A stretch of DNA of 51,545 bases. Source: Acidimicrobiales bacterium. Lineage in GTDB: Bacteria; Actinomycetota; Acidimicrobiia; Acidimicrobiales; SZUA-35. Shown in pieces: positions 323-46,036 of this stretch. The notes under the pieces were generated by a model. It did not search any database and had not been told where the DNA came from. It saw only the letters and a list, made by a program, of their open reading frames with translations. The stretch's first letter is position 1; every line of letters starts with the position of its first letter. A program made the translations under genes and the position numbers. Location: contig JAHDCC010000002.1 in the NCBI GenBank assembly GCA_020630065.1, positions 1-51,545 on the forward strand. The letters are read 5' to 3'.

Positions 323-1192
323 ATGGCTATGGCGCACATGTTGGTCAACCCGGCGGCGCGAAAGGGTAAAGGCGGCGGCACGGCGGACACTGTTGAACAA
401 CTTCTACAAAACCAAAGTCGCGGCGTAACCAGAATCGAACCCGAATCAGCCAACGACGTCGCAGAACAAGTACAGGCTGCACATAAACAAGGTATGGAAC
501 GGCTGATCATTGTTGGTGGCGACGGCATCATACATTTGGCGCTGCCCGCTCTCGCCCAAACCGGTATCGAAGTCGGCATCGTCCCGTCAGGAACCGGAAA
601 CGACTTCTCCCGGGCGCTCGGCATCCCGACCAACACCAAAAAAGCGGTCGAAGCGGCCCTCGGCGACTGTTCACCCATCGACCTTCTACGATCTGGCGAC
701 CGTTGGGCCGCCAGCGTCGTCACCGGAGGATGGTCCGGAGACGTCAACGAACGAGCCGCCAAAATACGTTTCCCGAAAGGTCAACACCGGTACACCGTCG
801 CCACACTGCTCGAACTGGGCGGCCTCGCCCCAACACCTCTCCGTCTCGAAATAGACGGTCAAACCCACGAGATGGAAGCAACGTTGTTTGCTGTTGGTAA
901 CACCGCCTACTTCGGCGGCGGGATGAAAGTCTGCCCGGCAGCGCTGCCCGACGACGGTCTTCTCGAAGTCGCAGTGCTAGCCCCAGTCTCGGGTCGGCAA
1001 CTCGTCCCGATAATCCCAAAGATTTTTCCTGGTAAACACGTAAATCACCCGAAAGTTTCAGTGTGGCGAGGTAGTTCAGTGAAACTGTCAACCCCAGCGC
1101 CACTCTGGGCTGACGGCGAAAAGTTCGGAATAGGTGACACTGAACTCACCGTTGTGCCCGGAGCGCTACAGGTTGCGGGTGTATCTACCTAG
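323..1192 (+). CDS. Diacylglycerol kinase-like lipid kinase (DagK/YegS family)
   Basis: Probable cytoplasmic or membrane-peripheral lipid kinase that phosphorylates diacylglycerol or a related lipid with ATP. The sequence shows the N-terminal nucleotide-binding region with NPAARKGKG (residues 9-17), the GGDG motif at 65-68 and GTGNDF at 90-95, followed by the beta-rich C-terminal domain. The length of 289 residues is typical of the family. The base-rich position after GGDG reads IIH rather than the usual TIN, a mild deviation. A second ATG at 329 lies 8 nt after GGAG (317-320) and fits a ribosome binding site better than the ATG at 323, so the protein may be two residues shorter. The exact lipid substrate cannot be read from sequence. 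Confidence 0.88.
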   Translation: MAMAHMLVNPAARKGKGGGTADTVEQLLQNQSRGVTRIEPESANDVAEQVQAAHKQGMERLIIVGGDGIIHLALPALAQTGIEVGIVPSGTGNDFSRALGIPTNTKKAVEAALGDCSPIDLLRSGDRWAASVVTGGWSGDVNERAAKIRFPKGQHRYTVATLLELGGLAPTPLRLEIDGQTHEMEATLFAVGNTAYFGGGMKVCPAALPDDGLLEVAVLAPVSGRQLVPIIPKIFPGKHVNHPKVSVWRGSSVKLSTPAPLWADGEKFGIGDTELTVVPGALQVAGVST

Positions 1193-1246
1193 TCGTCTTA
1201 GGTAATCAGGTACACGTAACAGCTGAACTTGTCGCAATGGTGAAAG

Positions 1247-2911
1247 ATGCGGTCACGCCTATACGCACGCCAATTACGCGGTTATACTGCGTCTGCAGGG
1301 TCGTTGGTGAAGTCGGGTCACCCTACTAATGTGCGGACGGGAGCAGTCGTGATCGACGGTGACTACAAAGTCGAGGAACCGCAAAGTGCTGGCCTCTCCC
1401 GCATCTGGTTAGGTCTGGGCCTGGGGTCGTTAATCCTTCTTGTAGCGATGACATCGCTCGTCGCTTTCAGCCTGGCCGACACCGAAACTTCCGACTCAGC
1501 CGACCCGACCAACGATTCCGATCCGGCAAACCCGGCGGCTGGTGCATCATACATTGCGCCTCAAGACGTGAATGGGTCAACTGTCCAAGTCGTTGGCCTC
1601 GACGAAAACGACGACGTGCTCTGTGCCGGGTCGGGAACAATCGTCACCCCATCCGGTCAGGTCCTTACCAGCGCTCAAGTTGTCACCATGTCCGAAGATT
1701 GCAGGTTTACTAGCCTCGCGGTGGCGGTGAGCGTTGAACCTGAATCGGCTCCCGTCCTGGCCTACGAAGCCGAACTGCTCGCAACCGACGCTGTACTCGA
1801 CATCGCGGTAGTGCGAATGGTCAACAACATTGCAGACGGAACGCCGCTCACCGAAAAGTTTTCGGCCCCCACACTCGGTAACAGCGATGACGTACGTGAA
1901 CGAGACGAAATAACGTTGAGTGGTTTCTCATCCGCTGGCGACGAGTCGTTGCGAACCGTTGACACATGGATCACCGGCTTCGCTCAACGATCAGGTGTCC
2001 CCGCCGCTCAACTTCTCCAAACTAACAGCAAAACGATTCCCGGGTTCGCTGGCGCAACTGCCACCGATTCCAGCGGACGAGTAATAGGCGTGGTCGGCTC
2101 AAGCGCCATCGAAGAAGAACCCAGCTGCCTCGACCTTCCACCAGCGGTCGGAGCGGAACAGTCCGATCAGCCCGGATGTCAAAAACCGGACGACGCAGTC
2201 AACGTGGTACGCCCAATAAACGTCGCTCTTAAAATCGTTGAAGAAGCCGAAGGGGCGCTACCAATACAGTTGGAATCGTCAGACGAAGGCTACGACCTTT
2301 CGAACCTGCGGTTCAGTAACCCTCGGTTCAGCATTGGTCAAACCGATAACCGGCCAGACGAGATCGTCCGCACCGCACGGTCAGGTGTCAACCAACTTTG
2401 CCTATTCGTCGACTGGTTCGGTATGCCAGCTGGGGCATCATGGGACGCCATCTGGTATCTCGACGGTCGACCACGCCTCGACTACAGTCTCCGTGACGAA
2501 GTTTGGGAAAACGAAGTCGAAGGCGAAAACTTCTGGGTATGTGCTTCAGATAATAATGGGCTAGCTGCCGGAACCTACGAAGTCGGGTTTTTTATCAACG
2601 ACGACAATATTTTTGCTGAAGGTTTTGTCCTAACCGACGAACCTGTCGACCTGCATGAAGTGACTTGGACAAACGACGTCGAAAGCGACGCCGAAATATG
2701 CAGCCTCGCTATCAACCCGAAAGGTTCCGGCCCCGTCGGGTTAAACGAACTGTCGGCCAGCGAAACCATCAAACCAGGCGAATCGATAACCTTTGAAATT
2801 CCTGAAAGCACTATCGTCGCTGCAGCCGACGACTGTAACGGTACTCGGCTAGCGATTCAGCTCGAAGGCCTCGAAGTCGACGGCCCTAAAGACTACAGCA
2901 TCGGGACGTAA
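1247..2911 (+). CDS. Membrane-anchored trypsin-fold protein, probably catalytically inactive
   Basis: One transmembrane helix (about residues 52-77) is followed by an acidic Ser/Thr/Pro linker and an HtrA-like serine-protease fold (about 108-290). The GSGTIV...G.VLT core is clear, but the position of the catalytic His is Gln144 (LTSAQVV instead of LTNAHVV). The Ser position is Ala268 (PGFAGAT instead of PGNSGGP). The Asp (Asp185, LDIAVV) is kept. The C-terminal part (about 350-554) holds two beta-rich, cysteine-containing extracytoplasmic domains I do not recognise. It probably binds rather than cuts its partner. The first 34 codons look unlike protein; a GTG at 1349, in frame and 5 nt after GGGAG, is a better start and puts the helix near the N-terminus. 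Confidence 0.8.
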   Translation: MRSRLYARQLRGYTASAGSLVKSGHPTNVRTGAVVIDGDYKVEEPQSAGLSRIWLGLGLGSLILLVAMTSLVAFSLADTETSDSADPTNDSDPANPAAGASYIAPQDVNGSTVQVVGLDENDDVLCAGSGTIVTPSGQVLTSAQVVTMSEDCRFTSLAVAVSVEPESAPVLAYEAELLATDAVLDIAVVRMVNNIADGTPLTEKFSAPTLGNSDDVRERDEITLSGFSSAGDESLRTVDTWITGFAQRSGVPAAQLLQTNSKTIPGFAGATATDSSGRVIGVVGSSAIEEEPSCLDLPPAVGAEQSDQPGCQKPDDAVNVVRPINVALKIVEEAEGALPIQLESSDEGYDLSNLRFSNPRFSIGQTDNRPDEIVRTARSGVNQLCLFVDWFGMPAGASWDAIWYLDGRPRLDYSLRDEVWENEVEGENFWVCASDNNGLAAGTYEVGFFINDDNIFAEGFVLTDEPVDLHEVTWTNDVESDAEICSLAINPKGSGPVGLNELSASETIKPGESITFEIPESTIVAAADDCNGTRLAIQLEGLEVDGPKDYSIGT

Positions 2912-3015
2912 CCATCGCCGTCGAGTTGCGCTACAATCAATCAGTTGTAGATTCTCCATCTTCTCCCGTCTCGTTCTGTGTTTGCGGTGAATGAGCTAGT
3001 AAGGTAAGTCGGCCT

Positions 3016-3798
3016 ATGAACATCGAAGAACAACGAAACCGGCTTTCGTCGGTGCTCCTAGTTGAAGACCCGACCGACGGCCTTTGGGAACTTTGTGATT
3101 CAGGTGACGCCGACCTTGTCATACCTGAACTCCCAGCCCTGCGCCTCGAACAAGATCCGGTCCATAAACACAAAGACGTTCTTGCCCACACCATTAAGGT
3201 GACCTCAAAAACCCGGGCCGATCTCACCTTGCGGCTCGCTGCGTTGTTCCATGACATCGGTAAACCGGCGACCCGACGGTTCGGTAACGACGGTGTCACG
3301 TTCCGCCACCACGAAGCGGTCGGAGCGAAAATAACTCGGAGCCGTCTCCGTAAACTCGAATTCGAAAAAGAAATCGTCGACAACGTAACTGAACTGGTTA
3401 GGCTCTCTGGCCGGTTCAAAGGATACGCCGACGGATGGTCCGACGCCGCCGTTCGACGGTACTGCCGCGACGCCGGACCGCTACTCGGGCTGCTTAACGA
3501 ACTAGTGCGGAGCGACTGCACCACCAAAAACAAACACAAAGAAGCCAAACTTCAAGCCGACATCGACGAACTTGAGCATCGGATAGTTGACTTAGCCCAT
3601 CAGGAACGACTGGCCGCTGAACGTCCACAATTGGACGGAAACGCCATCATGGAACGCTACGGAATCTCGGGCGGCCCCGAAGTGGGGAAGGCGTTGAAAT
3701 TCCTTCTCATCCTCAAACGCACTGAAGGTACACTTTCGGTCGACGAAATCGAATCCCGTCTCGACACTTGGTGGGCCGAGAACATCGGGACACCTTAA
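3016..3798 (+). CDS. Stand-alone HD-domain protein related to the C-terminal half of CCA-adding enzyme
   Basis: The protein carries an HD phosphohydrolase domain with histidines near 50-54, the HD pair at His79-Asp80 (LFHDIGKP) and RHHE at 97-100. It is followed by the RNA-binding tail of bacterial CCA tRNA nucleotidyltransferases (RPQLDGNAIMERYGI, about residues 208-222). The nucleotidyltransferase head that normally precedes this in about 480-residue actinobacterial enzymes is absent, and the 104 bases upstream cannot encode it. So this is either a paralogue with only phosphatase/phosphodiesterase activity or half of a split system. The stop codon overlaps that of the converging cbiB gene in a shared TTAA. 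Family is confident; function is not. Confidence 0.82.
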   Translation: MNIEEQRNRLSSVLLVEDPTDGLWELCDSGDADLVIPELPALRLEQDPVHKHKDVLAHTIKVTSKTRADLTLRLAALFHDIGKPATRRFGNDGVTFRHHEAVGAKITRSRLRKLEFEKEIVDNVTELVRLSGRFKGYADGWSDAAVRRYCRDAGPLLGLLNELVRSDCTTKNKHKEAKLQADIDELEHRIVDLAHQERLAAERPQLDGNAIMERYGISGGPEVGKALKFLLILKRTEGTLSVDEIESRLDTWWAENIGTP

Positions 3799-5740: not shown

Positions 5741-5773
5741 GGAACCGATGATTGCAGCTGATCGATCGATTCG

Positions 5774-6802
5774 CTACTTAATCGGATAGCCGTATCGAAG
5801 GAGTGACGGCAACGTCATCGTGGTAACTAGCGCCTTGTTAGGCGCCGACAACTTTGAACGCCACGCCTCATCTTGACGGAGCGTCAACGAGTCTCCACTG
5901 GTGAACCGCATCGGATTCCCGGAAGCCGAATGCATGGTTTTGCTTAACTGCACGTTAGGGCCGTCTATAAAGTCGAGGTCACCAGCGTCGAGTTCCACCC
6001 CAACAAAATCGGCGATGTCGGTTAAGCTCTGGACCGGGTTCTCAAGAAACGATTCGTATCGTAAACGAAGCGTCGGAACTGTACGTCCAAGAATGTCAAA
6101 AGCCGAGTTGTCGGTAACCCAACGAAGCGCAGTACGAGACGGCCTGTACCGGGGCATCAGCTTGCCTGCTGTTTCGGGACGTTCGACTTTCTTGGTCCAT
6201 GAATGAGCGACACCTCGCGGGTCCCGAACAACATGAAGGACCCGAACGTCAAGATGGGGTCCGGCGGCCAGTAGACCAGCGGTGCTCACATGTTTCGACG
6301 ATTCAAGTAACACCGGTGGCTGGTTGCTAGACGGCCCGTGAGGAATCGAAGCCGCAGCATCGAGCAGTCGATGATAATACGACACATATTTTTCTTGCTC
6401 AGAGTCGAGAACCCCGCTGCGCACAGCTTTCAAGATCGATCCGAAACGTCGAGACCGATCAAGCTTGTACCGCATATCGATAACGTCGTCTACGGCAATG
6501 TTGTCCCATCCGCCAAACGCCTGTTCCCCAACCGCAGACCAGAACGGACACTCCCCAAACGTTTGGCCGCAACCGCAACGTTCCTGAGCGACGACGCCTC
6601 GCTCCCAAAGATGCAGGGTTTCACCAACCGACCGGGTAGCTGGCAGTTCGTTGATCAGTTTCTCGATCAGAGTCGACCCGGACCGCCCCATGCCCCCAAT
6701 GAATAGGACTTTGGTTCGTTTCGGGGAAACGTCATCGTTGGTGGTGTCTTTTGTGGCCAAGGTCGCTCCGCCAGCTGACTGGTTTGCCGTGGTCATACCC
6801 AA
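5774..6802 (-). CDS. PAPS-dependent sulfotransferase family protein (first of a pair)
   Basis: Probable transfer of sulfate from PAPS to a carbohydrate, lipid or small molecule. The 5'-phosphosulfate loop is visible as GGMGRSGST (about residues 36-44), and the 3'-phosphate motif as VVRDPRGVAHSW (about 190-201). An N-terminal stretch of about 28 polar residues precedes the domain. The ATG at 6802 overlaps the stop of the upstream sulfotransferase by 10 bp. The next ATG at 6796 gives the classic 4-bp ATGA overlap and is the likelier start. A 33-base gap separates it from the cobalamin genes on the same strand, so co-transcription is possible. Acceptor unknown. Confidence 0.85.
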   Translation of the reverse strand: MGMTTANQSAGGATLATKDTTNDDVSPKRTKVLFIGGMGRSGSTLIEKLINELPATRSVGETLHLWERGVVAQERCGCGQTFGECPFWSAVGEQAFGGWDNIAVDDVIDMRYKLDRSRRFGSILKAVRSGVLDSEQEKYVSYYHRLLDAAASIPHGPSSNQPPVLLESSKHVSTAGLLAAGPHLDVRVLHVVRDPRGVAHSWTKKVERPETAGKLMPRYRPSRTALRWVTDNSAFDILGRTVPTLRLRYESFLENPVQSLTDIADFVGVELDAGDLDFIDGPNVQLSKTMHSASGNPMRFTSGDSLTLRQDEAWRSKLSAPNKALVTTMTLPSLLRYGYPIK

Positions 6803-29068: not shown

Positions 29069-32000
29069 ATGCGTGGAATGTGGCGACCTTTAGCAGCGAT
29101 CTTACTGATTGCGGCGACGACGATCTTTTTGGCAGGCGCCAACCCGGCATCAGCAGACACGCCGTTCTCCCCAATCTTTTCTACCAATTCGACTGGTGAC
29201 ATCGAATTTGTATCGAACACGGTCGCTACCTGTTCGAACGCATACGTGAACTGTGCTGCTGCCCAATCTGGCGCCGACTGGAACAACAACAACGTATCGG
29301 CCAACATGATCCAAGTCGATATCGACGGTGACCCAACAACATCGACATCGAGCAGCGCCAACTACACGTTGCCCGCAGGCGGCTCGGTGTTGTGGGCTGG
29401 ACTGTACTGGGCCGGATATTACCGCGGCCCCCATGCCGATAAAGACGACATAAAGTTCTCAACTCCAACCTCCGGTGGCTACAACAATGTGACTGCCAGC
29501 CAAGTATTCACCTACTACGGATCCGACGACTTCTACGGCGCCTACGTCGACGTCACCGCCGACGTCGCCGCTGGCGGCTCGGGAACCTACACCGTTGGTG
29601 ACATCAAAGTATCTCCCGGCTATTCCTCAACCCATGGGGGATGGACACTCGTCATCGTTGAATACGATCCAGCCGAACCGTGGAAGAACCTCACCGTAAA
29701 TCAAGGCTTTCAAACGATCGGTCCGATCCCGTCGGCGACCATACCTGTCACCGGGTTCACGGCACCCCCAATCGGTCCCGTCAACGCCGAGATCGGAATT
29801 GTGGCCAGCGAAGGAGACCGTCGGGGCACGGGCGACTATGCCGAATTTAACGGCGTGCGGCTGACCGACGGCAACAACCCGAGCAACAACTTCTTCAACT
29901 CCACCCTCAGCGACAGCGCCGTCTACCAATCGGGATCGAATCCCCTCTACCCATCTAACACTCTGGGCTATGACGCCGACATCGTTTCTACATCAGGTCT
30001 GGTTCCCCCCGGGTCGACATCAGCCAACGTCACGGTAGGAACTACCGGCGACTGGTATTGGCCGATGGTGGTCACCACCGCCATAGAAATCTACGTCCCA
30101 AACCTGACAACAAACCTTGAGAAGACGGCAACCGATCTCAATGGAGAAGACCTGCATCCGGGCGACACGATCGAATACTCCATCTTTTTCAACAACACGG
30201 GGGACGACCCCGCGGTCGACGTAGCGTTATCCGACGCAATACCGGCCGGGACAACCTACAAACCAGGCAGTCTGCAAGTAATTCAAGACGACTCTCCAAC
30301 CGGGCCACGAACCGACGGGACCGGTGACGACACCGCCTGGTTCGACGGGACGGCAGTCAACTTCAATCTTGGAGTAGGGGCCACGGCATCGAGCGGGGGA
30401 GAGGTTGCGCCACTGTCACAAGGCGGCCATGGATACGAAGTCCGATTCCAGGTGACCGTCGACGCTGGAACCGAAAATAGCGACATCAAAAACGAAGCCG
30501 AAATCGACTACATCGCAAAGTTCATCAACGAGCCCTATAACGCTACAAGTAACGAAACCGTTCAGCCAGTTGAGCCGCTCGTCGACCTCGTAATCGACAA
30601 GGTCGACATCACCGACCCCGTAAACGCAGGCGAACAAATAACGTATCGAATCGACTACAAAAACGGTGGACCGTCAACTGCCAACAACGTCGTAATCACC
30701 GACAATTTGCCGGCCGGAACCGTCTTCAACGCCAGTGCTTCAGATCCGACATGTAGCGCATCAGGGCTAGTCGTAACCTGTTCGACTCCCTCAATGGCAG
30801 ACGGGGACTCCGAGTCGTTACTGATCGTCGTCGATGTTGACGGTGACTTAGCAGCCACCAACGTCTGTAACCGGGCATCGATCACCTCCGACACCCACGA
30901 ACATGAACTCAACGATAACGTCGACAAAGAATGCACCGAAATCGAACGAGAAGTAGATTTAACACTCGAAAAAACCGCACCCGCCACAGTCGCCGCCGGT
31001 GACCAATTCACCTACGTCGTCACGGTAGAAAACAACGGGCCATCCGACGCCCAAAACGTGGTGGTCGCCGACGCATTGCCGTCGGGGGTAAACCTTGTCA
31101 GCGTCACACCAAGCGGAACCGGCACATGCACGGGAACAGTAAACTGTGACTGGTCCGAAATCGCCGCCGGTGGCTCAGAAACGCTCACCATCGTCGTTGA
31201 GGTTCCATCTGGTGCCACCGACGGAACCGTGTTTAAGAACCGGGCTAAAACCGGAAGCGACGACCCGGACGTAGACGAAAACGACAACTACGCTGAGGTC
31301 GACACCGAGGTTGTCACCGAAGCCGACCTAGAAGTTCTCAAACAAACCGAAACCTCTCCAGTTATAGCCGGGGAATCGATCACCTACACGCTGACGGCGA
31401 CGAACAACGGCCCATCCGACGCCCAAAACGTGGCCATCACCGACCCGGTACCAGCCGGACTGACCTATGTGCCGTCGCTGTCATCGACCGACTGTGTCCT
31501 GGCCGCCGGTGTCGTCACTTGCTCGACGCTGGCACTAGCCGATGGCGACTCGACAACGTTCACATTAGTCTTTGATGTGGACGACTCGCTGGTTGACGGA
31601 GCATCTCTAACCAATACCGCAACCATCGCATCCGACACCGACGACCCGGTTTCGGGTAACGACACCAGTCAAGTAGTCGACACCGTAACCCGCCAAGCCG
31701 ACCTGTCAATCGTGAAGGACGACAACACAACAACCGTTGACGCTGGCGGCCAAATAACCTACACGATCGACTACCGTAACGACGGTCCGTCGGACGCGTC
31801 AACAGTTTCGATAACAGACACGCTGCCCGCCGGTGTCACCTTTGACTCTTCGTCGGATTGCACGGCCTCCGGTTCGACGGTGACCTGCGCCATCGGAAAC
31901 GTCCCCAACGGCGGATCAGGGTCGGTCTCATTTGTTGTCGACGTCGACTCGTCACTACCCGACACGACCCAACTGCTCAACTCCGCCAGTGTCTCGGCCA

Positions 32001-35000
32001 ATGAAACCGACCCCGACCCTGACGACAACAACTCGGAAGTAACAACCGACGTTGATCGAACCAGTAACCTCATCATCGAAAAAGACGATCTCACCGACCC
32101 CGTCATAGCGGGCGAATCAACCACCTACCGGATCAAAGTCACCAACCTAGGTCCATCGACTGACACCGGTGTGACGCTCAGCGACGCATTACCAGCCGGT
32201 ACAACATTTGTGTCTACCACCGACCCGACAAACTGCAGCCACACCGCAGGCACCGTAACTTGTGCTATCGGCACGATGCTGCCCAACGCGACCTACACCG
32301 TTGATGTTGTAGTCGACACCGACACCAACCTTTCCGACGGTCACATACTTAAGAACCAGGCGACCGTCGTCGGAGACTTCTCCACACTGGTCGACGATTC
32401 CGAAGAGACGACGGTACAAACCTCAGCCGACCTCGCAATAACAAAAACCGCACCGGCCACCGTAATCGCAGGACAGTCAGCGACCTACACCATTTCTGTC
32501 TTCAACGACGGTCCATCCGACGCTCAAAACGTCATTGTCGTAGACGCACTGCCGCCCGGCGTCACCTACACAAACCATACCGTCACCCAAGGCTCAGGAA
32601 CCTGCACATTCACCGCCCCGATTCTGACCTGCCAGCAGTCGAGCCTCGCCTCCCAAGCCACGATGTCAATTGACATCGTCGTAGCCGTAGACGACTCACT
32701 AGCGGAGGGAACCACACTCACCAACGCCGCAAAAACCGACAGCGACACCAACGACCCCGACGACGCCAACAACAACGCGCAAGATGATTCAACCGTCGAA
32801 CGGCAAGCAGACCTCGAAGTCGGAAAAACTACGATCACCCCATCGGTTCTCGCCGGATCAACCGCCACGTTCGAAGTTACTGTCACCAACAACGGTCCAT
32901 CGGTGGCAAGTGGCGTATCAATCACCGATACGTTACCCGCGGGGTTCACCTTCAACAGCTCACTGTCCGACAGTACCTGTGCCACTGGTGTCACCTGCAC
33001 AGTGGGTACCGACATAGCGGTCGGAGACTCCGTCACCTTCACGATTGTCGCTGACGTAGATTCAGCCACCATAGACGGCACCTACACAAACTCGGCTACT
33101 GCCGCCGGTAACGAAACCGACCCCGAGTTAACAAACAACTTTCCGACATCAGACATTGACGTAGCTGGCGAAGCAGACCTGTCAATCACTAAAGTCAGTG
33201 ACACAACCACCTTTGTGCCCGGCACAACTGGCTCGTACACCATCACAGTCGAAAATAACGGTCCTTCGGACGCCGCCAATATTTTGGTCACCGACATCTT
33301 GCCAACCGGACTAACCTTCAACGCCGCTGGCTCAGACCCAGATTGTGTCGCCTCAACGGGAACCGTCATGTGTACCGCCGATACCCTCGCCGCCTCAGGG
33401 CAATGGGAATTCACACTCGTCGTCGACATCGACGCCGACTACACCGGAGACGTAGTAAACACCGCCACCGTCGGCTCCGACACCGTCGACCCAGACGAAT
33501 CAAACAACTCAAACACCGATACCACCACAACGGCCCCCGAAGCTGACTTGTCCATCGTCAAATCCGCACCAACGGACGTGGTAGCAGGCGAAACCCTCAC
33601 CTACTCCATCGTTGTGCGGAACGACGGCCCATCGGATGCAGTCGCAACCGAAGTCGTAGACAGTTTGCCCGCCGGGTTGACGTTCGTGTCGACCGGTTCA
33701 AGCCCGCAATGTTCAGCCACCGGTCAAACCGTCACTTGTTCACTAGCCACAATGGAACCGGGCGACACCGTCATATTGAGCATCGTCACCGCCGTCGACA
33801 CCTCGGTTCCACATTTAACCACGATCGTCAACTCGGCCACAGTCGATTCCGACACTCACGATCCGGATGGCAGCGACAACACCTCCGAAACCGAAACTGA
33901 AAGCTCACGAGAAGTCGACATAGCGATCGACAAGACAGCTTCAGCGGAAACCGTGGTCGCTGGAACATCGTTCACCTACACGATCGTCGTCACTAACGCG
34001 GGACCTTCGGACGCCTCAGACGTTTCGGTATCAGACGTATTCCCGGCAGGAATCACAGCCACCGCGGTCACAACCGATTTTGGTATCTGCGGAAACAACA
34101 TGACCGGATTCGGCTGCTCAGCCGCATCCATGGCACCAACCGACGTGATGACCATAACGGTCACCGCCGAAATAGACGAATCTGTCGCCAACGGCACGAC
34201 GCTAACAAACACTGCGTATGCGGTTACCGCTGACCCCGACACCAACGATGCGAACAACAACGACTCGGCAGATGTAGACGTTGACACCCAAGCCGATCTC
34301 AGCGTCGAAAAAACCGCCGACGTCGAAGACGTTATCGCAGGCGAACCTTTAACCTACACCATCACCGTCACCAACAACGGTCCATCAGACGCCCAAAACG
34401 TTGAGCTGATCGACAACGTCCCGACTTCACTACTAATCGATTCTGTCAGCTCTGCCGACATGACCTGCACCGTCACCGGTCAACTCGTCGAATGTGACAC
34501 AGCCTCACTCGCTGACGGTGCCACTGCCACCGTCACCGTCAACACGACGGTCGACGAAAACACAGCCGACTCCGCCACCGTGTCAAACACCGCGAGCGTA
34601 ACGTCGAGCACCGACGACCCGAACGAAGACAACAACTCCGCTGAAGAACAAACGGGAGTAGACAAACTTGTCGATCTCGAACTAGCAAAAACGACGACCA
34701 AACCAATCGCAGGCGCGGGCGAAACCCACCCGTACGAAATCGAAGTCACAAACGCAGGCCCGTCGAGCGCCACCAACGTGACCATAACCGATACTCTCCC
34801 AGCTGGAACTACCCTCAACACCAGCTTGTCTGACGTCAGCTGCAGCGCAGTTAGCGTCACCGTGACTTGCACCATCGCCTCGATCACGGCTGGGGGAACA
34901 GCGTCGGTCAATATCGTGATCGACATTCCCGCAGACCACCCCGACGGCGGCACGATCACAAACGCAGCTTCGGTTGTATCCAACGAAGCAGACTCCGACC

Positions 35001-38000
35001 CAGATAACAACAGCGACGAGGTAACCACAACGGTCACCAACTCAGCCGACCTCGGAATCGTCAAAGACGGTGACGGCGCAGCGACCGCTGGCCTCCCATA
35101 CACCTGGACACTCGCAGTCACCAACAACGGTCCATCAGATGCCGTCAACACCATCGTCACCGACACACTACCGACAGGCACCGCCTTCAACGCGGCCGCC
35201 TCTGACTCTCGCTGCTCCGCCATAGGTCAAGTCGTGACCTGCACGATCCCAGTACTAGCGGCAAACACAGACACCGACTTCGTAATCGCCGTCGACGTTG
35301 ACTCGTCGGTGGCAGCCGCCGCGGACTTAGAAAACGCGGCAGGTGTTTCATCAGACACCGACGATCCAAACACCGACAATGACAACAGCTCCGATACTGC
35401 AACCGTCGCACGAGATTCCGATATCGACATCACAAAACGTGACCTCACCGATCCGGTTATCGCCGGGCAACAAATCCAATGGGAAATCACCGTCGACAAT
35501 CGAGGACCCTCTGACGCCAACAATGTCACCATCGCTGACCCGATACCAACAGGCTTTAACTTCGTCTCTGTCGATAACACATCCGACTGTTCATACAACA
35601 GCGGCAGCGTGAACTGCCTTTTCCCAACAATTGTTGACGGAGCGTCAGAAACTATCGTGATCACCGCAGATGTTTCCTCCAACATCGACGATGCACAGGT
35701 CATCGGCAATACCGCCACCGCCGATAGCGACTCGTCTGACCCCGTCAGCGACGAAGAAGAAACCACCGTGCAGCGACGAAGCGACCTCCGAATCGAGAAA
35801 ACCTCGGACGAAGCTGCCATAGCTGGAACAAACCAGACCTACACCATAACCGTCACCAACGATGGCCCGTCTGACGCCGACAATGTCGAAGTCGTCGATT
35901 ATCTACCTGCTGGTGTCAACTACGTCTCATCAACCCTGCCCGGATGCTCACCGGTAGCCGCAACCGTCGAATGCGACTTGGGTGATATCGCGAATTCGGG
36001 TTCGGTCACATTCGACATTGTTGTGTTCATCACCGATGCTGCGGGAACCGCCCCCCGCAACGTCGTTGAAGTCGATTCCGACTCGGTCGACCCAGACGAA
36101 TCAAACAACATCGACGATGACACCACCACCGTCACGTTCGAAGCAGACCTCGTTATAGCTAAGTCGTTGGTAACCGACCTGATCGTTCCAGGAGAGTCTG
36201 CGACCTGGGAGATCGTAGTAACCAACAACGGTCCATCGATCGCCAACAACGTAGAAGTCACCGACACATTGGCAACCGGGTTGACGTTTGCGGCCGTAGG
36301 TTCTGACCCGGCCTGCTCGGCAGTTGCCCAAGACGTAACATGCGTCGAATCGGACCTTATCAGCGGCGAGTCCAAAACCTTCACGCTGGTAACTGACATC
36401 GACTCGTCGTTGGTCGGGACACTCGGCAACACTGCCAGCGTCACATCGTCCACCCCCGACCCTGATAGTAGCTCTAACACCGCTGAGGCTGAAGGCGAGC
36501 TCAGCCCACAAGCCGACATGTCGATCCAAAAAACGTCGACCACGGCAACTATCACCGCAGGCGAAAACATTACCTACAACGTGGTCGCCAACAACGGCGG
36601 CTCGTCGGATGCCCTCAACGTCGTAATCACCGACCCCGTGCCGGCCAACACCACTTTCGTGTCAGCTCTGTCAAGCTCGAACTGTAGTCTGGCTGGGGTC
36701 AACGTGGTGTGCACGATTCCCGTCGTGCCTGCCGGTGAAGAAGCCGCAGTGGTATTGACGTTCGAGTTAGCGTCGGGCTATCCGGATTCAGCGACTCTCA
36801 CCAACTCTGTCGTAGTCGACTCAGACACACCAGACCCAGACACCGACAATAACGGCAACAGCGATGACACCCCAGTTGAAACATCAGCCGATATTGGGCT
36901 AGTCAAATCTGGTCCGTCCGAAGCAGTAGGCGCAGGCGAAGAGTTCGACTACACCATCACGCTAACCAACGACGGTCCGTCCGACGCCCAAAACGTAGAC
37001 ATCATCGACACACTGCCTGCAGGCACAACGTTTGTATCGGTCGACGACGCAGCCTGTTCAGAAACCAGCGGAACTATCACCTGTTCGTATCCGACGGTCG
37101 CAGACGGAGACGAACTTGTCATCACGATCACCGTCTTAGCCGACTCAACACTGGTCGAAGGCTCGACGATAACAAACGAGGCCTCCGCAGAATCAGACAC
37201 CAACGACCCTAACGAAGACAACAACAACGACACACAAGACTCGACCATTGAGCGCACCGCCGACCTCGAAGTAACAAAGACGGCAACACCTCAACCAGTT
37301 ATTGCCGGCACCCAACTGGTTTACACATTGACGGTGGTAAATAACGGTCCGGCTATTTCAGACAACGTTGAGATCAGCGACGTGCTTCCAACCGGCACAA
37401 CCTTTGTATCTGCCGATGCTGGATGTGGTCACCTGGCTGGAACAGTAACTTGTTCGGCCGGGTCACTCGATGTTGGTGACGTAGCCGAATACGCAGTGAC
37501 CGTTCTGGTAGATGCAGATGTTGCCGAGACCCCAAGCATGGTAAACAGCGCGACCGCCACCGGAGATGACTCGCCAGAAAGCACAGAAACAGAAGAGGTC
37601 GAAGTACAAACAGAAGCAGACCTTTCACTAGCAAAGACTCTCAATGACGACCTCGTCGCTGGTGAAGAAGCGACGTACACACTCACACTTCTAAATGCTG
37701 GTCCGTCCGACGCTCAAAATGTTGTGATTACCGACGCTCTTCCGTCCGGTCTAACCTACGTTTCAGACACGTTCGGATGTGATGTGACCGGTTCAGCTAT
37801 CAGCTGCGATGTGGGCACCGTCGCTAACGGGGCTGGAGTCACAATCGAGCTGACCGTAATGGTCGAACCTTGGGTCGCCGACGGGTTTGTCCTGACAAAC
37901 AACGCAGGGGTTGAATCTGACACCTACGATCCCGACGCCGCCAACAACACGGCCAGCGACTCAGATGACACCGACACCGCAGCCGACCTATCGATCACGA

Positions 38001-39256
38001 AGACACTCGACGGTGAAACACTCGGCGCAGGGCAACAGGCCGTCTACAACATCGAGGTTCACAACGACGGTCCATCAGATGCGCAAAACGTTATCGTCAC
38101 CGATGCGTTACCAGCAGGCCTGATATTCCAGACGGTCGGATCCGACAGTTCCTGCATCGGATCGACTTCAGTGACCTGTTCACTAGGCGTTCTAGCTGCA
38201 GGCGAAACGTACACACTGACAATTGTGGTCGACGTCGATGCTTCCGCTGAAGGGCCAATCGTCAACACTGCGACGGTTGCCAGCGAAACCCTCGACCCCG
38301 ACGACACCAACAACTCGGTTGAGGAAACATCCGACGTGTCAGCGGTAGCCGAGGTCCAAGTCGAGAAGCTGTTGATTGGCGAAGAGCTCACTCCGGGTAC
38401 CGAAGTTGACTGGACTATCACTATCGAAAACATTGGGCCAGCGACCGCGACGGACGTAACGGTCAACGACATATTACCCGCCGACCTGAGCTACGTTTCC
38501 CACTCCATCGCCGGAAACGGGATAGCGGCCACGGGAGACGATTGTGTCTTCGCCGGTTCCGCCGTTTCTTGCCTGTTTGATGTGGTCGAAGTCGGCGACG
38601 TAATCACTATCACGATCACGACACTGGTTGACCCTTCTGAACAGACAGACGAAATTATTAACACGGCAACGGTTAGCAGCCCGGAAATGGTTGAAGCCGC
38701 AGTCTCGGTAGTCGCTGACACCGTCGACCCAGTAGATGCGAGACTTGTCGTAGACAAGGTAGGGCCAACTGGGCAAGTCACAGCAGGCGACGAGTTTGAT
38801 TGGACCATAACGGTCCGAAACGAAGGCCCCGATCCTATGACAGTGCCATTCACGGTCGCAGACAACCTGCCAGCAGGTTTGACCTATATTTCCCACTCGG
38901 CGTCGTCTAGCGGTTCAGCGAGTCCAGTCTGTGATACATCCAGCAGCTCTGTTAGCTGCGAGGTTCAAACCCTGAACGTCGACGAGTCCGTAACGTTGGT
39001 AGTCACTACCAGGGCAGAAGAGACCGGTTCGTACCAGAATGTAGCGACCGTAGACGCCGCTTTTCTGGCCGACCCTGAACCGGTCCGATCGTCGGCCACA
39101 ACCGCAGTCGAGGCAACCGACACCATCGCAGGTTTAGCGTTTACCGGCGGTGAGCTTACGCTAATCGTCGGTGCTGGCGCGGCAGCGATAGCGGTTGGTG
39201 CAGGTCTCGTTGTGGGATCTCGACGCCGCGGAACCCACGGGCCATCAAAAACTTAA
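29069..39256 (+). CDS. Giant secreted DUF11-repeat surface protein with LAFTG sortase signal
   Basis: A 3395-residue envelope protein. The signal peptide is cleaved about after Ala29 (PASA-D). An N-terminal non-repeat domain (about 30-345) carries WAGLYWAGYYRG and GGWTLVIVEY, a type that often precedes DUF11 arrays. About 24 DUF11-like beta-sandwich repeats of roughly 124 residues follow (about 348-3340). Most repeats contain ADLxIxK, a GPSDAQNV-like core, LPAGTTF, a pair of cysteines 8-12 apart, and an Asp/Asn-rich SDTxDPDxxNN. The C-terminus has LAFTG (3356-3360), a hydrophobic helix and RRR, an LAxTG-type class E sortase signal. No sortase gene is in the window. Start is uncertain: neither ATG 29069 nor 29078 has a clear ribosome binding site. 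Probably a cell-wall-attached adhesin or stalk. Confidence 0.95.
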   Translation: MRGMWRPLAAILLIAATTIFLAGANPASADTPFSPIFSTNSTGDIEFVSNTVATCSNAYVNCAAAQSGADWNNNNVSANMIQVDIDGDPTTSTSSSANYTLPAGGSVLWAGLYWAGYYRGPHADKDDIKFSTPTSGGYNNVTASQVFTYYGSDDFYGAYVDVTADVAAGGSGTYTVGDIKVSPGYSSTHGGWTLVIVEYDPAEPWKNLTVNQGFQTIGPIPSATIPVTGFTAPPIGPVNAEIGIVASEGDRRGTGDYAEFNGVRLTDGNNPSNNFFNSTLSDSAVYQSGSNPLYPSNTLGYDADIVSTSGLVPPGSTSANVTVGTTGDWYWPMVVTTAIEIYVPNLTTNLEKTATDLNGEDLHPGDTIEYSIFFNNTGDDPAVDVALSDAIPAGTTYKPGSLQVIQDDSPTGPRTDGTGDDTAWFDGTAVNFNLGVGATASSGGEVAPLSQGGHGYEVRFQVTVDAGTENSDIKNEAEIDYIAKFINEPYNATSNETVQPVEPLVDLVIDKVDITDPVNAGEQITYRIDYKNGGPSTANNVVITDNLPAGTVFNASASDPTCSASGLVVTCSTPSMADGDSESLLIVVDVDGDLAATNVCNRASITSDTHEHELNDNVDKECTEIEREVDLTLEKTAPATVAAGDQFTYVVTVENNGPSDAQNVVVADALPSGVNLVSVTPSGTGTCTGTVNCDWSEIAAGGSETLTIVVEVPSGATDGTVFKNRAKTGSDDPDVDENDNYAEVDTEVVTEADLEVLKQTETSPVIAGESITYTLTATNNGPSDAQNVAITDPVPAGLTYVPSLSSTDCVLAAGVVTCSTLALADGDSTTFTLVFDVDDSLVDGASLTNTATIASDTDDPVSGNDTSQVVDTVTRQADLSIVKDDNTTTVDAGGQITYTIDYRNDGPSDASTVSITDTLPAGVTFDSSSDCTASGSTVTCAIGNVPNGGSGSVSFVVDVDSSLPDTTQLLNSASVSANETDPDPDDNNSEVTTDVDRTSNLIIEKDDLTDPVIAGESTTYRIKVTNLGPSTDTGVTLSDALPAGTTFVSTTDPTNCSHTAGTVTCAIGTMLPNATYTVDVVVDTDTNLSDGHILKNQATVVGDFSTLVDDSEETTVQTSADLAITKTAPATVIAGQSATYTISVFNDGPSDAQNVIVVDALPPGVTYTNHTVTQGSGTCTFTAPILTCQQSSLASQATMSIDIVVAVDDSLAEGTTLTNAAKTDSDTNDPDDANNNAQDDSTVERQADLEVGKTTITPSVLAGSTATFEVTVTNNGPSVASGVSITDTLPAGFTFNSSLSDSTCATGVTCTVGTDIAVGDSVTFTIVADVDSATIDGTYTNSATAAGNETDPELTNNFPTSDIDVAGEADLSITKVSDTTTFVPGTTGSYTITVENNGPSDAANILVTDILPTGLTFNAAGSDPDCVASTGTVMCTADTLAASGQWEFTLVVDIDADYTGDVVNTATVGSDTVDPDESNNSNTDTTTTAPEADLSIVKSAPTDVVAGETLTYSIVVRNDGPSDAVATEVVDSLPAGLTFVSTGSSPQCSATGQTVTCSLATMEPGDTVILSIVTAVDTSVPHLTTIVNSATVDSDTHDPDGSDNTSETETESSREVDIAIDKTASAETVVAGTSFTYTIVVTNAGPSDASDVSVSDVFPAGITATAVTTDFGICGNNMTGFGCSAASMAPTDVMTITVTAEIDESVANGTTLTNTAYAVTADPDTNDANNNDSADVDVDTQADLSVEKTADVEDVIAGEPLTYTITVTNNGPSDAQNVELIDNVPTSLLIDSVSSADMTCTVTGQLVECDTASLADGATATVTVNTTVDENTADSATVSNTASVTSSTDDPNEDNNSAEEQTGVDKLVDLELAKTTTKPIAGAGETHPYEIEVTNAGPSSATNVTITDTLPAGTTLNTSLSDVSCSAVSVTVTCTIASITAGGTASVNIVIDIPADHPDGGTITNAASVVSNEADSDPDNNSDEVTTTVTNSADLGIVKDGDGAATAGLPYTWTLAVTNNGPSDAVNTIVTDTLPTGTAFNAAASDSRCSAIGQVVTCTIPVLAANTDTDFVIAVDVDSSVAAAADLENAAGVSSDTDDPNTDNDNSSDTATVARDSDIDITKRDLTDPVIAGQQIQWEITVDNRGPSDANNVTIADPIPTGFNFVSVDNTSDCSYNSGSVNCLFPTIVDGASETIVITADVSSNIDDAQVIGNTATADSDSSDPVSDEEETTVQRRSDLRIEKTSDEAAIAGTNQTYTITVTNDGPSDADNVEVVDYLPAGVNYVSSTLPGCSPVAATVECDLGDIANSGSVTFDIVVFITDAAGTAPRNVVEVDSDSVDPDESNNIDDDTTTVTFEADLVIAKSLVTDLIVPGESATWEIVVTNNGPSIANNVEVTDTLATGLTFAAVGSDPACSAVAQDVTCVESDLISGESKTFTLVTDIDSSLVGTLGNTASVTSSTPDPDSSSNTAEAEGELSPQADMSIQKTSTTATITAGENITYNVVANNGGSSDALNVVITDPVPANTTFVSALSSSNCSLAGVNVVCTIPVVPAGEEAAVVLTFELASGYPDSATLTNSVVVDSDTPDPDTDNNGNSDDTPVETSADIGLVKSGPSEAVGAGEEFDYTITLTNDGPSDAQNVDIIDTLPAGTTFVSVDDAACSETSGTITCSYPTVADGDELVITITVLADSTLVEGSTITNEASAESDTNDPNEDNNNDTQDSTIERTADLEVTKTATPQPVIAGTQLVYTLTVVNNGPAISDNVEISDVLPTGTTFVSADAGCGHLAGTVTCSAGSLDVGDVAEYAVTVLVDADVAETPSMVNSATATGDDSPESTETEEVEVQTEADLSLAKTLNDDLVAGEEATYTLTLLNAGPSDAQNVVITDALPSGLTYVSDTFGCDVTGSAISCDVGTVANGAGVTIELTVMVEPWVADGFVLTNNAGVESDTYDPDAANNTASDSDDTDTAADLSITKTLDGETLGAGQQAVYNIEVHNDGPSDAQNVIVTDALPAGLIFQTVGSDSSCIGSTSVTCSLGVLAAGETYTLTIVVDVDASAEGPIVNTATVASETLDPDDTNNSVEETSDVSAVAEVQVEKLLIGEELTPGTEVDWTITIENIGPATATDVTVNDILPADLSYVSHSIAGNGIAATGDDCVFAGSAVSCLFDVVEVGDVITITITTLVDPSEQTDEIINTATVSSPEMVEAAVSVVADTVDPVDARLVVDKVGPTGQVTAGDEFDWTITVRNEGPDPMTVPFTVADNLPAGLTYISHSASSSGSASPVCDTSSSSVSCEVQTLNVDESVTLVVTTRAEETGSYQNVATVDAAFLADPEPVRSSATTAVEATDTIAGLAFTGGELTLIVGAGAAAIAVGAGLVVGSRRRGTHGPSKT
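30100..39090 (+). repeat. Array of about 24 tandem DUF11-like repeats
   Basis: Reading the protein by its ADLxIxK starts gives about 24 units. The first (about 348-503) is divergent and longer, and the last two (from about 38340) are also divergent. The units in between are about 120-126 residues. The repeats are diverged overall, but some DNA stretches are near-identical, especially the bases for NNGPSDAQNV (for example near 31405, 34370, 36967). Gene conversion or unit gain and loss is therefore possible. The count is by eye. Confidence 0.88.
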
Positions 39257-43054: not shown

Positions 43055-46036
43055 TTACCCGTCGTTGTTGGCTGCGTTTTTGGCGTCGAGTTCAGCTTGA
43101 GCCTTTGGTGTTAGGTCACCGTTGCAGTCCCGGCCTTCGCCAGGTCGGTAAAAGCCGCTGAATGAGTCTTCTACAATTTCCCCGTCAGGGAACTCGGTGA
43201 ACCGACGGGTGGTGTACACCCGGCATTCACGGTCTGAGGTTATTTCAGGCGGGAAGGTTGAATCTCTGCCTCGTTCATAAACATCAAACGCTAGTTCGTT
43301 TCCGTTGACGTCGCGAACTGTGAGATGTTTCTGCGAGTAAAAGGTGACGGTGATCGAATCACTGGTGTACGACGTCCAGATCAGGATTGGATGTTCTGAC
43401 GTGTTCTTAACTCGAACATCAACCGAAGGGTAGTCGATGGTGGATTCTCGACCTAGCGGGTAACGAGAAGCGATAGCAAGTGTGTGGAACTGGTGCTCCT
43501 GGATTTCGATTCCGGCAAAAAACGAGGCGTTAAAGAATGTTGTGGCGAACTGGCTTATTCCGCCGCCTACCTGCTGCTCGATAACACCTTGGTTGATGGC
43601 CCCATCGGCGACGAAACCTTTCTCGATGGTTCGTTTTCCGACCGATTCGTTTAATGAGAGTTCTTCGTCGACCTCAATGACGGTTCCTCTCATGAGATCA
43701 GCAAACCGTTGAATATTGGTTACTCGAGGCCCGCCCGGAGCGTGAGGGGTTGTGAACGAACTTACTTCTTCGATGATTCCATAGGAGTTGAGTTTTTCCG
43801 CTGTTGGATCTTCGTCTACAAATTCGGGTTCGACGATTACCAGTTCACCTTCGGCAGGCCGGTTTAGCGCAGCTTCTTTGATTCGTTGCCCAGTGTCCTC
43901 GCCGCAGCATTCGACCGCGCTAGAAACCGGAACTACTACTGGCGTGTCATTTACGATCGTAAATGTGGCTTCGTCGCTGTCGGTGCCGACGTTCGTGAAT
44001 TTTTTCTTGAGCGCTTCGACCGCTAGGTCATTGTCGATCTGCCAGGTCAAATCTGACCCGGAATTGTCGAGCGTAACCATCTTGCGGAGCTCGTCTGGCT
44101 CTGCGGTTGCAGTATTGTCAAGCAGCTGGATTTCTAGCGGCTCATCTAACGCATCAGAAGCCTCGTCGGCTGCGGTGTTCGCATCAGCCTCTGAAATCTG
44201 TGGGACACCTTCAACCGGGGTGAGTTCCAGTACCGGTTGGTCAGATTCTCCCAGTGCGTCCGGCAGCTCGTTCTCGATTTCAGATGCTTCTATTCGTTCC
44301 CCTATTTCGCCTGGAACGACCCGGAAACCGGACCCGTCAGCTTCGATACTGGTTTCGATGACCGGTTCGATAATTGGTTCAAAGATCGTTCGGCTTGCTT
44401 CGTCGGCGGCCTTTTGGTCTACAAGATAGGTTGCAGAGACTTGATCGGTGCGTAAGAAACTGGAAGCCCAACTGAACGGACGAGCCAAGATAAACCCAGA
44501 TCGTCGAGATTCAAGGGCGTCGGCTGTCGTAGCTTCGATATCGGGTTCTGCTCCAAGAGCTCGCGGTGTGGTGACTACAGAATCTCCATTGGCGTTCACG
44601 GTTAGATCGACGTCAAGAACATCGTCTGTTGCTTTGGTGATCGCAGCAGATAGTTCGTCGCCTGATAGTCCGCTGATATCGACGCCGTTTAGCTCGGTGT
44701 TGCGGGCAACCCGCTCACCTCGGCTGTTCTGGTCGATAGCCCAGGCAGCGAAAAATCCTCCGACTAGGAGAACCGGAATAAGTAGTAAGGCAAGGACTTT
44801 ACCCTTGCCTCCTTTTTTGGCTTTGAAGCTCGAACCTAACGGAGAGGTTTCCGGTGTAGGGGGTTGAGACGTCGGTTTTGGTGTCGGCGTAACCAGCTTC
44901 TGGGTAGGTTCCGGTGAGGTCTTTGTTGGGGTGCTCAATACGTTGGGTACTGGCGCAGCTTGAGCGGGTTGGGCAGGCGTCGATGGGGTTGTGGCCGAGG
45001 CGCCAGACTTTTGGTTAACGAAGCTCGTAGTTTCGGCGGCAGCCTTATCGGCGGCTATTTCGACGGTCTCTGCCGATGCTGGTGTTGGGTCTGTGCTTGG
45101 TTTGGCGGTCGGTGTTGGTTCGGTGCTTGGGGTGGAGATCTTGGCCGTAGGTGTTGAGGCTGGATCTGCCGATGCTGGTGTTGGGTCTGTGCTTGGTTTG
45201 GCGGTCGGTGTTGGTTCGGTGCTTGGGGTGGAGATCTTGGCCGTAGGTGTTGAGGCTGGATCTGCCGATGTAGGTGTTGGTTCTAAAGGCTGGCCGGTCG
45301 GAGGGTTGGTGGGAACCTGAGCGGTTGGTTGAACTTCTGCGGTTTTGGCGTCAGAAATCGTCTCGGTCTTAGAGGGCTCCGACGGCGTTTGTGGTTTAGG
45401 CTCGGAGGCTGGTGTTGCCGGAGTTTGTGATGCGTTAGTCACCGGTGTCGGTGTAGAGCTTGTCGTAACTTCTTTGAGCGTGGTCTTTTCATCAGCCAAG
45501 ACCGGGTTTGAAGGGTCAGCGGATGGAGATGTCGGTGATGGGATTTCGTTGACCGTGTTGTCGACTCGCACGGTTCTGTCTGTTGGCGCATCAGACGACG
45601 GTTCAGGCGCAGACGGCAACGGGGAATCTTTTTCAGTAATGATTTCTGTCGTATCATCGGTGAATGGGTTCGCTACCACCGATTGTGTTTCATCTGAAGC
45701 AGAAGTAGTATCCGCTGCCGTTACTTCCAAGATCTCTGTAATATTGCTGGCTTCTTGTGGCCGTTCCCGATCCGTCGATGTAGAAGGTTCGCTGACGTCC
45801 TCTGTCGCCGGGTCAGCCGAGTCGCCAACTGCGCTTAGGTCTTTGATCGGCTGATCTACTGTAATATCTTCAGTCGTTTGCCCAGAGCTGGACGACGCAT
45901 CAAAAGACGATGTACCTTCTGTCTCGCCAGAAGGTTGCGACGATAACTTCTGTGCAGAGTCGTCTGAAGACCCGCTCTCGTTTGATTCTGAAGTACCTTT
46001 GTCTTTTTCAGTAGCCACCAGGGACAAGTGTGCCAC
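43055..46036 (-). CDS. VanW-domain protein with long disordered N-terminus and a single membrane anchor
   Basis: Residues 1-410 are Ser/Thr/Pro/Glu-rich and disordered, with a 32-residue exact tandem repeat (near 259-322). A lysine-rich patch and transmembrane helix (about 410-434) follow. The extracytoplasmic part holds peptidoglycan-binding-4-like domains (from about 440). The VanW domain (about 755-895) has SLNESVGKRTIEKGFVADG, GGGISQFATTFFNA and EHQFHTLAIASRYPLGRE, and a small C-terminal extension follows. VanW proteins are cell-wall associated with unclear biochemical role. GTG start (46036) with a weak ribosome binding site. The long cytoplasmic tail is unusual and may be a target for phosphorylation, which is only a suggestion. 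Confidence 0.9.
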   Translation of the reverse strand: MAHLSLVATEKDKGTSESNESGSSDDSAQKLSSQPSGETEGTSSFDASSSSGQTTEDITVDQPIKDLSAVGDSADPATEDVSEPSTSTDRERPQEASNITEILEVTAADTTSASDETQSVVANPFTDDTTEIITEKDSPLPSAPEPSSDAPTDRTVRVDNTVNEIPSPTSPSADPSNPVLADEKTTLKEVTTSSTPTPVTNASQTPATPASEPKPQTPSEPSKTETISDAKTAEVQPTAQVPTNPPTGQPLEPTPTSADPASTPTAKISTPSTEPTPTAKPSTDPTPASADPASTPTAKISTPSTEPTPTAKPSTDPTPASAETVEIAADKAAAETTSFVNQKSGASATTPSTPAQPAQAAPVPNVLSTPTKTSPEPTQKLVTPTPKPTSQPPTPETSPLGSSFKAKKGGKGKVLALLLIPVLLVGGFFAAWAIDQNSRGERVARNTELNGVDISGLSGDELSAAITKATDDVLDVDLTVNANGDSVVTTPRALGAEPDIEATTADALESRRSGFILARPFSWASSFLRTDQVSATYLVDQKAADEASRTIFEPIIEPVIETSIEADGSGFRVVPGEIGERIEASEIENELPDALGESDQPVLELTPVEGVPQISEADANTAADEASDALDEPLEIQLLDNTATAEPDELRKMVTLDNSGSDLTWQIDNDLAVEALKKKFTNVGTDSDEATFTIVNDTPVVVPVSSAVECCGEDTGQRIKEAALNRPAEGELVIVEPEFVDEDPTAEKLNSYGIIEEVSSFTTPHAPGGPRVTNIQRFADLMRGTVIEVDEELSLNESVGKRTIEKGFVADGAINQGVIEQQVGGGISQFATTFFNASFFAGIEIQEHQFHTLAIASRYPLGRESTIDYPSVDVRVKNTSEHPILIWTSYTSDSITVTFYSQKHLTVRDVNGNELAFDVYERGRDSTFPPEITSDRECRVYTTRRFTEFPDGEIVEDSFSGFYRPGEGRDCNGDLTPKAQAELDAKNAANNDG
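45069..45260. repeat. Perfect 2 x 96-bp tandem duplication within the VanW gene
   Basis: Bases 45069-45164 and 45165-45260 are identical, and the first 10 bases recur at 45261 before the match decays over about 24 bases. The unit encodes 32 residues (ADPASTPTAK and so on) of the disordered N-terminus, keeping the frame. Identity without synonymous differences implies a recent duplication and probable length variation among strains. Confidence 0.95.

Follow-up and report, generated by a model that had tools for sequence, protein, structure and literature searches.

We identify the 3395-residue open reading frame at 29069-39256 (+ strand, ATG start) of the window, the whole stretch of 51,545 nucleotides of Acidimicrobiales DNA that was analysed, as a fibrillar surface protein with a CLIPPER stalk. 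The building plan is already known; new here, and unusual, is that part of the protein's relatives keep the order of their repeats despite a repeat likeness of about 37%. We consider it probable that this fibrillar protein is exported by the Sec route and joined to the wall by a class E sortase, and that it combines a stiff, cross-linked stalk with a ligand-binding head. In this model, a class E housekeeping sortase would cut the LAFTG tail and join the exported protein to the cell wall, and the 24 CLIPPER domains would make up an extended and stiff stalk about 100 nm in length. Each domain would close its own Lys-Asn isopeptide bond on folding, with the Asp helping, and nearly all would add a disulfide between two neighbouring strands; isopeptide bonds and disulfides together would let the stalk withstand pulling, heat and proteases. 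The stalk would keep the ~315-residue head away from the wall, where the head would most likely bind a ligand carried by particles, algae or other cells. These data join CLIPPER, a newly solved domain, to a concrete fibre, with the bonding residues in every bead of a 24-bead array.

Architecture of the protein

From N to C terminus, the protein consists of a signal peptide, a ~315-residue head, 24 DUF11 domains reaching to about residue 3345 and a tail made of LAFTG, a hydrophobic stretch and RRR (Table 1). It takes up 19.8% of the window and has, in its sequence, three features of a fibrillar adhesin: great length, a stalk of repeated domains and a surface-anchor tail. A preliminary description of this DNA had already read an open reading frame of one fifth of the window at this place, with a distinct N-terminal domain ahead of about 24 DUF11 repeats of some 124 residues and an LAFTG/hydrophobic/RRR sorting signal; its observation and the architecture were right, and our results support its interpretation. 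Neither of the two outcomes that it had named as refuting, a genome lacking sortase E or repeats foreign to DUF11 profiles, was obtained. The net charge of the protein is -435 and its Lys/Arg content is very low.

The scan of neighbouring genes found NUDIX, SNase and YdjC upstream of the fibre gene and, downstream, a convergent gene for a HerA/DUF87-like ATPase that overlaps it by 4 bases. About 3.8 kb from the fibre gene, a 993-residue protein with VanW and PG_binding_4 (43055-46036, - strand) is probably wall-associated. NucS, the class E sortase and the base composition would fit an actinobacterium, possibly one of the Acidimicrobiia.

Table 1. Parts of the fibre protein, with residues and positions in the window.
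Feature	Residues	Position	Strand	Basis
Signal peptide	1-29	29069..29155	+	Translation; hydrophobic core, ASA/DTPF end; cleavage site by eye
N-terminal head domain; cysteine pair C55/C62	about 30-345	29156..30103	+	No Pfam, NCBIfam or PDB sequence match
First DUF11/CLIPPER domain; K352, D389, N475, zero cysteines	about 347-505	30107..30583	+	Partial DUF11 and profile matches; triad by eye
23 further DUF11/CLIPPER repeats	507-3345	30587..39103	+	Pfam DUF11 and repeat profile
Sorting motif LAFTG	3356-3360	39134..39148	+	Sequence anatomy and relatives' tails
Hydrophobic membrane stretch, basic tail SRRRGTHGPSKT, stop		39149..39256	+	Translation

Bonding residues and cysteine pairs in the repeats

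The search with Pfam DUF11 (PF01345) that the preliminary description had proposed returns 24 stretches (1576.6 bits, cut-off 24.6), so far above the threshold that the repeats can be taken as DUF11 domains, and NCBIfam B_ant_repeat, a DUF11-type model, also finds 24 (830.3 bits). Our own repeat profile, which was built from 21 of the protein's own repeats and which divergent repeats elsewhere may escape, gives 24 domains as well, between residues 358 and 3339, including 20 repeats of 119-127 residues each at residues 507-2973. The first domain is longer than the others and is matched only partly, by DUF11 and by the repeat profile. The NCBIfam RrgB-type isopeptide model matches 15 stretches.

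The name CLIPPER replaced DUF11 in 2025, once a crystal structure had revealed an internal Lys-Asn isopeptide bond (PMC12617251); for 9IFR, Costa and colleagues describe a Lys715-Asn806 isopeptide bond with Asp748 alongside (PMC12617251). Five PDB sequences are matched by our repeat profile at E<=1, the best being the Aureispira grappling hook protein (9flp, E 8.1e-10, one stretch) and the second 9ifr (E 0.0053), and the profile alignment lays K5, D39 and N96 of the repeat onto K715, D748 and N806 of 9IFR. The K-D-N triad is present in 23/23 scored window repeats by profile and, by eye, in the first domain, and 24 of the protein's 42 lysines are those predicted to bond. K5, G15, N26, G28, D39, C65 and N95 are invariant across the 21 aligned window repeats. 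An aligned cysteine pair is found in 22 of the 23 scored repeats, the exception being repeat 631-753, in which the partner is shifted by three residues (C687/C693), and all 50 cysteines of the protein can be grouped into pairs by position. A disulfide together with an isopeptide bond is already known, having been reported for 29.7% of CLIPPER domains and 41.3% of those in Actinomycetota (PMC12617251); the near-completeness of the combination in the window protein is what is notable. The DUF11 identification of the preliminary description stands, and our analysis adds what that description did not hold, namely the CLIPPER isopeptide identity, the cysteine pairs and the kept repeat order.

Between the 23 scored repeats, protein identity is 36.6% on average and reaches a maximum of 47.9%, and adjoining repeats are 36.8% identical. 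The last value fits the 30-40% given as usual between neighbouring repeats of mammalian arrays in a review that also describes highly similar repeats as prone to misfolding (PMC9704523). Many window repeats close with an acidic loop of the type SDTxDPDxxNN (for example at about residues 979-990), and one of the domains that the modelled repeat pair resembles in structure is a CARDB domain binding metal ions (3idu, Z 12.3). The acidic loop and this one structural match give rise to the idea that metal may be bound where two beads join.

Structure model of the repeats

Structure prediction of repeats had been put forward as a check, and we ran AlphaFold2 on an alignment (A4) of 11 tandem pairs from the window protein, picked by hand for similar length from the 20 pairs of an earlier alignment (A3, 382 columns), which was badly gapped and was replaced. 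The resulting two-repeat model, of the pair at 34298-35050, has a pLDDT of 95.8 and a pTM of 0.81. In VIA-align, 9IFR matches it with Z 14.9 and an rmsd of 2.0 A over 115 residues of a chain of 123, and pilin domains match with Z 14.2 (BcpA) and Z 12.0 (RrgB). The top VIA-align rows are integrin alpha chains, with Z up to 16.0 over 241 residues across both repeats (rmsd 4.5), and 9IFR is not among the best 50 by Foldseek E-value, a list headed by integrin chains spanning both repeats. In this model, the repeats share the CnaA-like beta-sandwich fold of 9IFR, and the end-to-end match of integrin alpha chains over both repeats suggests an extended joint. K5, D39 and N97 are placed in strands 2-7, 32-40 and 93-102, and the two cysteines on consecutive strands, C57 on 56-60 and C66 on 63-71. 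Taking 4-5 nm per domain, the stalk would come to about 100 nm.

The head domain

No Pfam family matches the head (best E 0.15). It is present in 12/61 near genomes and in 18/248 genomes of the order, drawn evenly, the window's own genome being counted in both samples. Across 11 proteins including the window's, 74 positions are invariant, of which 68 fall within residues 31-345, and a head conserved in this way could become a named family. Distant matches, at 29-31% identity, come from records named Tenacibaculum, Polyangium, Rhabdochlamydiaceae and uncultured proteobacterium. Three of these four records have a DUF11-type match in an open frame, that of Tenacibaculum passing the cut-off only with the NCBIfam model, and the Polyangium record has no open frame fitting the head match. 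Other families carry the head in shorter frames of 771-1222 aa, and two more distant relatives, G041 and G042, have it without such an array by the repeat profile (one partial hit in the first, zero hits in the second); the pairing of head and stalk is thus not constant.

The prediction of the N-terminal domain, also suggested in the preliminary description, gave from five sequences a weak model (pLDDT 58.7, pTM 0.67). In this weak model, two halves (about 12-170 and 174-314) are matched to jelly-roll domains by VIA-align, and structural matches from Foldseek and VIA-align include GH86 enzymes (Z 10.4), furin (Z 9.9) and PNGase F (Z 8.3). We rejected a family assignment from the fold, because the matches are generic jelly rolls on a weak model; a double jelly-roll is possible.

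One alternative, which we regard as unlikely, is that the protein serves as a structural spacer or matrix protein whose fibres would form a coat on the cell, or tie cells together through stalks or heads that stick to each other, with no specific foreign ligand. The strongly negative charge and the scarcity of Lys and Arg would suit a repelling brush, the genome encodes other giant surface proteins, and the head belongs to no known binding family. However, a conserved and distinct distal head is the usual plan of an adhesin, and the 68 invariant head positions across 11 proteins also speak against a mere spacer. We favour a ligand-binding head with a putative adhesin role.

Sorting signal and sortases

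With a signal peptide, an LAxTG motif, a hydrophobic stretch and a basic end, the window protein has the sequence expected of a class E sortase substrate. Class E sortases are reported to take LAXTG (PMC5148588), in agreement with the preliminary description. The LPXTG_anchor model TIGR01167 does not include the window tail among its 21 matches at E<=10 in the window's own genome, and the Pfam scan of the protein returned no anchor family, so the assignment of a sorting signal rests on the anatomy of the tail and on similar tails in relatives. TIGR01167 is a weak classifier, with a match over its cut-off in 9/14 control genomes, and was not taken as defining class E substrates. The corresponding motifs in the relatives with a visible C-terminal end are LAFTG (G006, G022, G007), LPFTG (G018, G042), LPLTG (G014, G148), LPITG (G027), LPRTG (G013, contig C79) and IAFTG (G207, G100). 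A tally of all LAxTG proteins by DNA pattern was abandoned, the reversed control giving 218 hits against 164 for the pattern.

The window protein is one of several large proteins with such tails in its genome. Four further giants of about 1870 to 2950 residues end in LPFTG, LAFTG or LALTG; three have DUF11 matches (L029:6672-14543, L032:61-5670 and L033:2269-10599, all on the - strand), and for the fourth (L029:15665 to L030:4505, +) no DUF11 match was reported. Our repeat profile has 30 hits in these further large proteins, most of the hits partial, 2 with the full triad and 2 with the cysteine pair. A large gene adjoining the giants runs off the ends of contigs C54 and C26, apparently through a break in the assembly. 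A smaller protein of the LALTG type, which also has DUF11 matches, is split into two overlapping frames (L030:4631-5785 and 5754-6584, +), through either a frameshift or an assembly error.

Four sortases are encoded in this genome (3.70 Mb, 95% complete), none of them on the window's contig. A search for a class E sortase, which the preliminary description had recommended, found one above the cut-off (NF033747, 178.8 bits against 160); in an alignment with the solved sortase 5go5 its GHRTTYG segment falls on GHRRTYG, and it matches SrtE1 (5cuw) at 5e-17. The class E model has a match in 60/61 genomes including the window's own, in 34/61 above the cut-off. The enzyme is a housekeeping sortase whose presence says little about the window protein, and with a match this close to universal the sortase test discriminates little; co-occurrence was dropped as support, being uninformative at 60/61 genomes. 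The other three sortases (L006:8291-9019, L007:8770-9387 and L008:2563-3237) are nearest to class F yet under its cut-off (126.7-138.0 against 166 bits). Those at L007 and L008 lie directly behind a gene for a product with a C-terminal hydrophobic stretch and basic tail, possibly a dedicated partner.

We find it improbable that the LAFTG tail is left unprocessed and acts as a mere C-terminal membrane anchor, the protein being held in the membrane or shed: the missing TIGR01167 report speaks for it, but LAFTG with a hydrophobic stretch and RRR is as expected of a class E signal (LAXTG; PMC5148588), relatives keep similar tails, and a class E sortase is present in the genome. A sortase-built pilus subunit, polymerised head to tail instead of being anchored singly, is rejected as highly improbable, for although the repeats are folded like the middle domains of pilins (the BcpA and RrgB matches above) and the RrgB isopeptide model finds its 15 stretches, class C, the pilus class, is the best model for 0/4 sortases in this 95% complete genome, one being class E and three nearest class F, and all four are on other contigs than the window. 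Wall anchoring of single fibres by the class E sortase would best account for the tail.

Repeat number, conservation and order in relatives

Repeat number, which the preliminary description had proposed to compare across related genomes, ranges from 18 to 32 in seven complete relatives of the same family, against 24 in the window protein; three more relative frames are truncated by contig ends. The ten relatives with both ends at least partly visible keep the array and the tail. Among repeats spanning all three triad positions, the first set of proteins, the window's included, has the triad in 212/213 and the cysteine pair in 205/213, and four more proteins have them in 109/112 and 100/112. 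Pooled over the window protein and 13 relatives, 14 proteins out of 17 reading frames scanned, the triad is found in 321/325 scored repeats and the cysteine pair in 305/325, the four repeats that depart from the triad being one of G022 and three of G148. The triad counts exclude hits that fail to cover the three positions (20/233 and 9/121); by eye, 28 of these 29 have a lysine inside the match or just ahead of it, so the span filter hides few losses. One frame (L065) has zero repeat-profile hits, and two others (L063, L064) have none spanning the triad. Some relatives contain closer repeat pairs than the window protein, up to 66.7% in G022.

We tested repeat order by setting the reciprocal best repeat matches between two proteins against shuffles, for 54 protein pairs; four newer proteins were compared with each other and with five of the eight earlier complete ones. 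Between the window protein and G014, 21/21 reciprocal best matches fall at the same index (23 against 21 scored repeats), and with G027 the figure is 20/20 (23 against 22). Outside the family, 15/15 matches are in order with G100 and 13/14 with G207. The proteins can be placed in a group A (window, G027, G014, G018, G207, G100) and a group B (G006, G022, G007, G249), and with groups drawn from the same order data that they summarise, every shuffle is beaten by 13/13 tested pairs within A, 5/5 tested within B and 0/21 between A and B. The remaining 15 pairs all involve G013 or G148, which fit neither group, and none is above the shuffles. For most window repeats the closest repeat belongs to another species and not to the window protein itself when the comparison is with G014 (21/23), G027 (22/23) or G018 (15/23), against 5/23 for G007; the repeats left unmatched in the comparison with G014 sit towards the wall. 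In a tree of the head with 11 rows, G000, G027, G014 and G018 split from the rest with support of 100/99. One genus holds both array types without a common order (G207 and G100 against G249; loci L075, L078 and L076). By eye, two common genes, one helicase-like and one of 278-308 residues, precede the copy in G006, G022, G013 (contig C92) and G003, and are absent there in the window, G027, G014 and G018.

Concerted evolution or a recent repeat expansion in the window protein is rejected by the low identity and the one-to-one matches. Recent gene transfer as the only cause is weakened, since the divergence of head and repeats is close to that of GcvP: in comparisons of the window's genome with G014 or G027, identity is 65-66% for the head, 58-60% for the repeats and 67-68% for GcvP, and with G014 alone head (66%) and GcvP (68%) agree. 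For the G027 copy itself gene transfer is likely. Among the copies of G027, G014 and G018 (loci L054, L055 and L060), the G027 head is 80% identical to that of G014, from another genus, against 49% to that of G018, from the same genus, whereas GcvP of G027 is 70% identical to G014 and 73% to G018, which, on this one marker gene, points to horizontal transfer or old paralogy.

From these sequences, it appears that the array formed long ago in at least two forms, each of which has since changed mostly by point substitution. Low repeat similarity would hinder recombination, and a frozen order therefore need not mean a selected order. A bolder proposal, which we hold tentatively and think doubtful, is that the array is a specified, titin-like structure in which selection holds each of some 20-25 cross-linked domains in its own place, for example through domain-specific junctions or graded stiffness, with two ancient types, A and B, persisting unmixed even in one genus. 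With a bead order kept across three genera and a second family, these proteins are a natural set for asking whether the order of stalk domains matters, a question beyond the reach of arrays with near-identical repeats.

Comparison with known systems

By title or abstract start, we found no publication on the window protein among the matches listed for DUF11 with isopeptide, DUF11 with sortase, or DUF11/Acidimicrobi/Ilumatobacter, and no paper on Acidimicrobiia with sortase, in a literature coverage that leaves most subscription journals outside. Several described systems resemble the fibre in part. Grappling hook protein A of Aureispira is a giant surface protein. It has a DUF11-like domain (PDB 9flp), as the window protein does, yet a single domain of its 5898 residues matches above threshold, against an array of 24 here. 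Chaplins are small proteins. Those of Streptomyces coelicolor are described as anchored by SrtE1/SrtE2, the same combination of an LAXTG signal and a class E sortase, but they serve aerial growth and not a giant fibre (PMC5148588).

The closest structural counterpart is 9IFR, the CLIPPER stalk domain of the Acinetobacter silvestris fibrillar adhesin B9T28_05395, which shares the fold, the K-D-N triad by alignment and the fibrillar setting. Its disulfide is described as a CTTC motif in the last strand (PMC12617251), whereas the window pair lies on two successive mid-domain strands and recurs in nearly every repeat. The giant adhesin of Mobiluncus mulieris, with 51 cross-linked Ig-like domains and LPxTG (PMC10619420), is a giant wall-anchored array with a covalent cross-link in each domain, the plan proposed here for the window protein. 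It is reported to mix ester and isopeptide domains and to have a putative thioester domain near its N terminus (PMC10619420); the window protein, in contrast, has a single type of domain and a different head, and its Pfam hits include neither an ester nor a thioester family. Finally, Periscope proteins are surface rods of tandem domains with a distal head, as proposed here, and their repeats are described as near-identical at the coding level and variable in number (PMC8201768, PMC9704523). Near-identical tandem repeats of this type were not found in the window protein, where the closest of the 23 repeats are 47.9% identical; unlike Periscope arrays, its stalk is built from repeats of 36.6% mean identity whose order is kept in part of its relatives.
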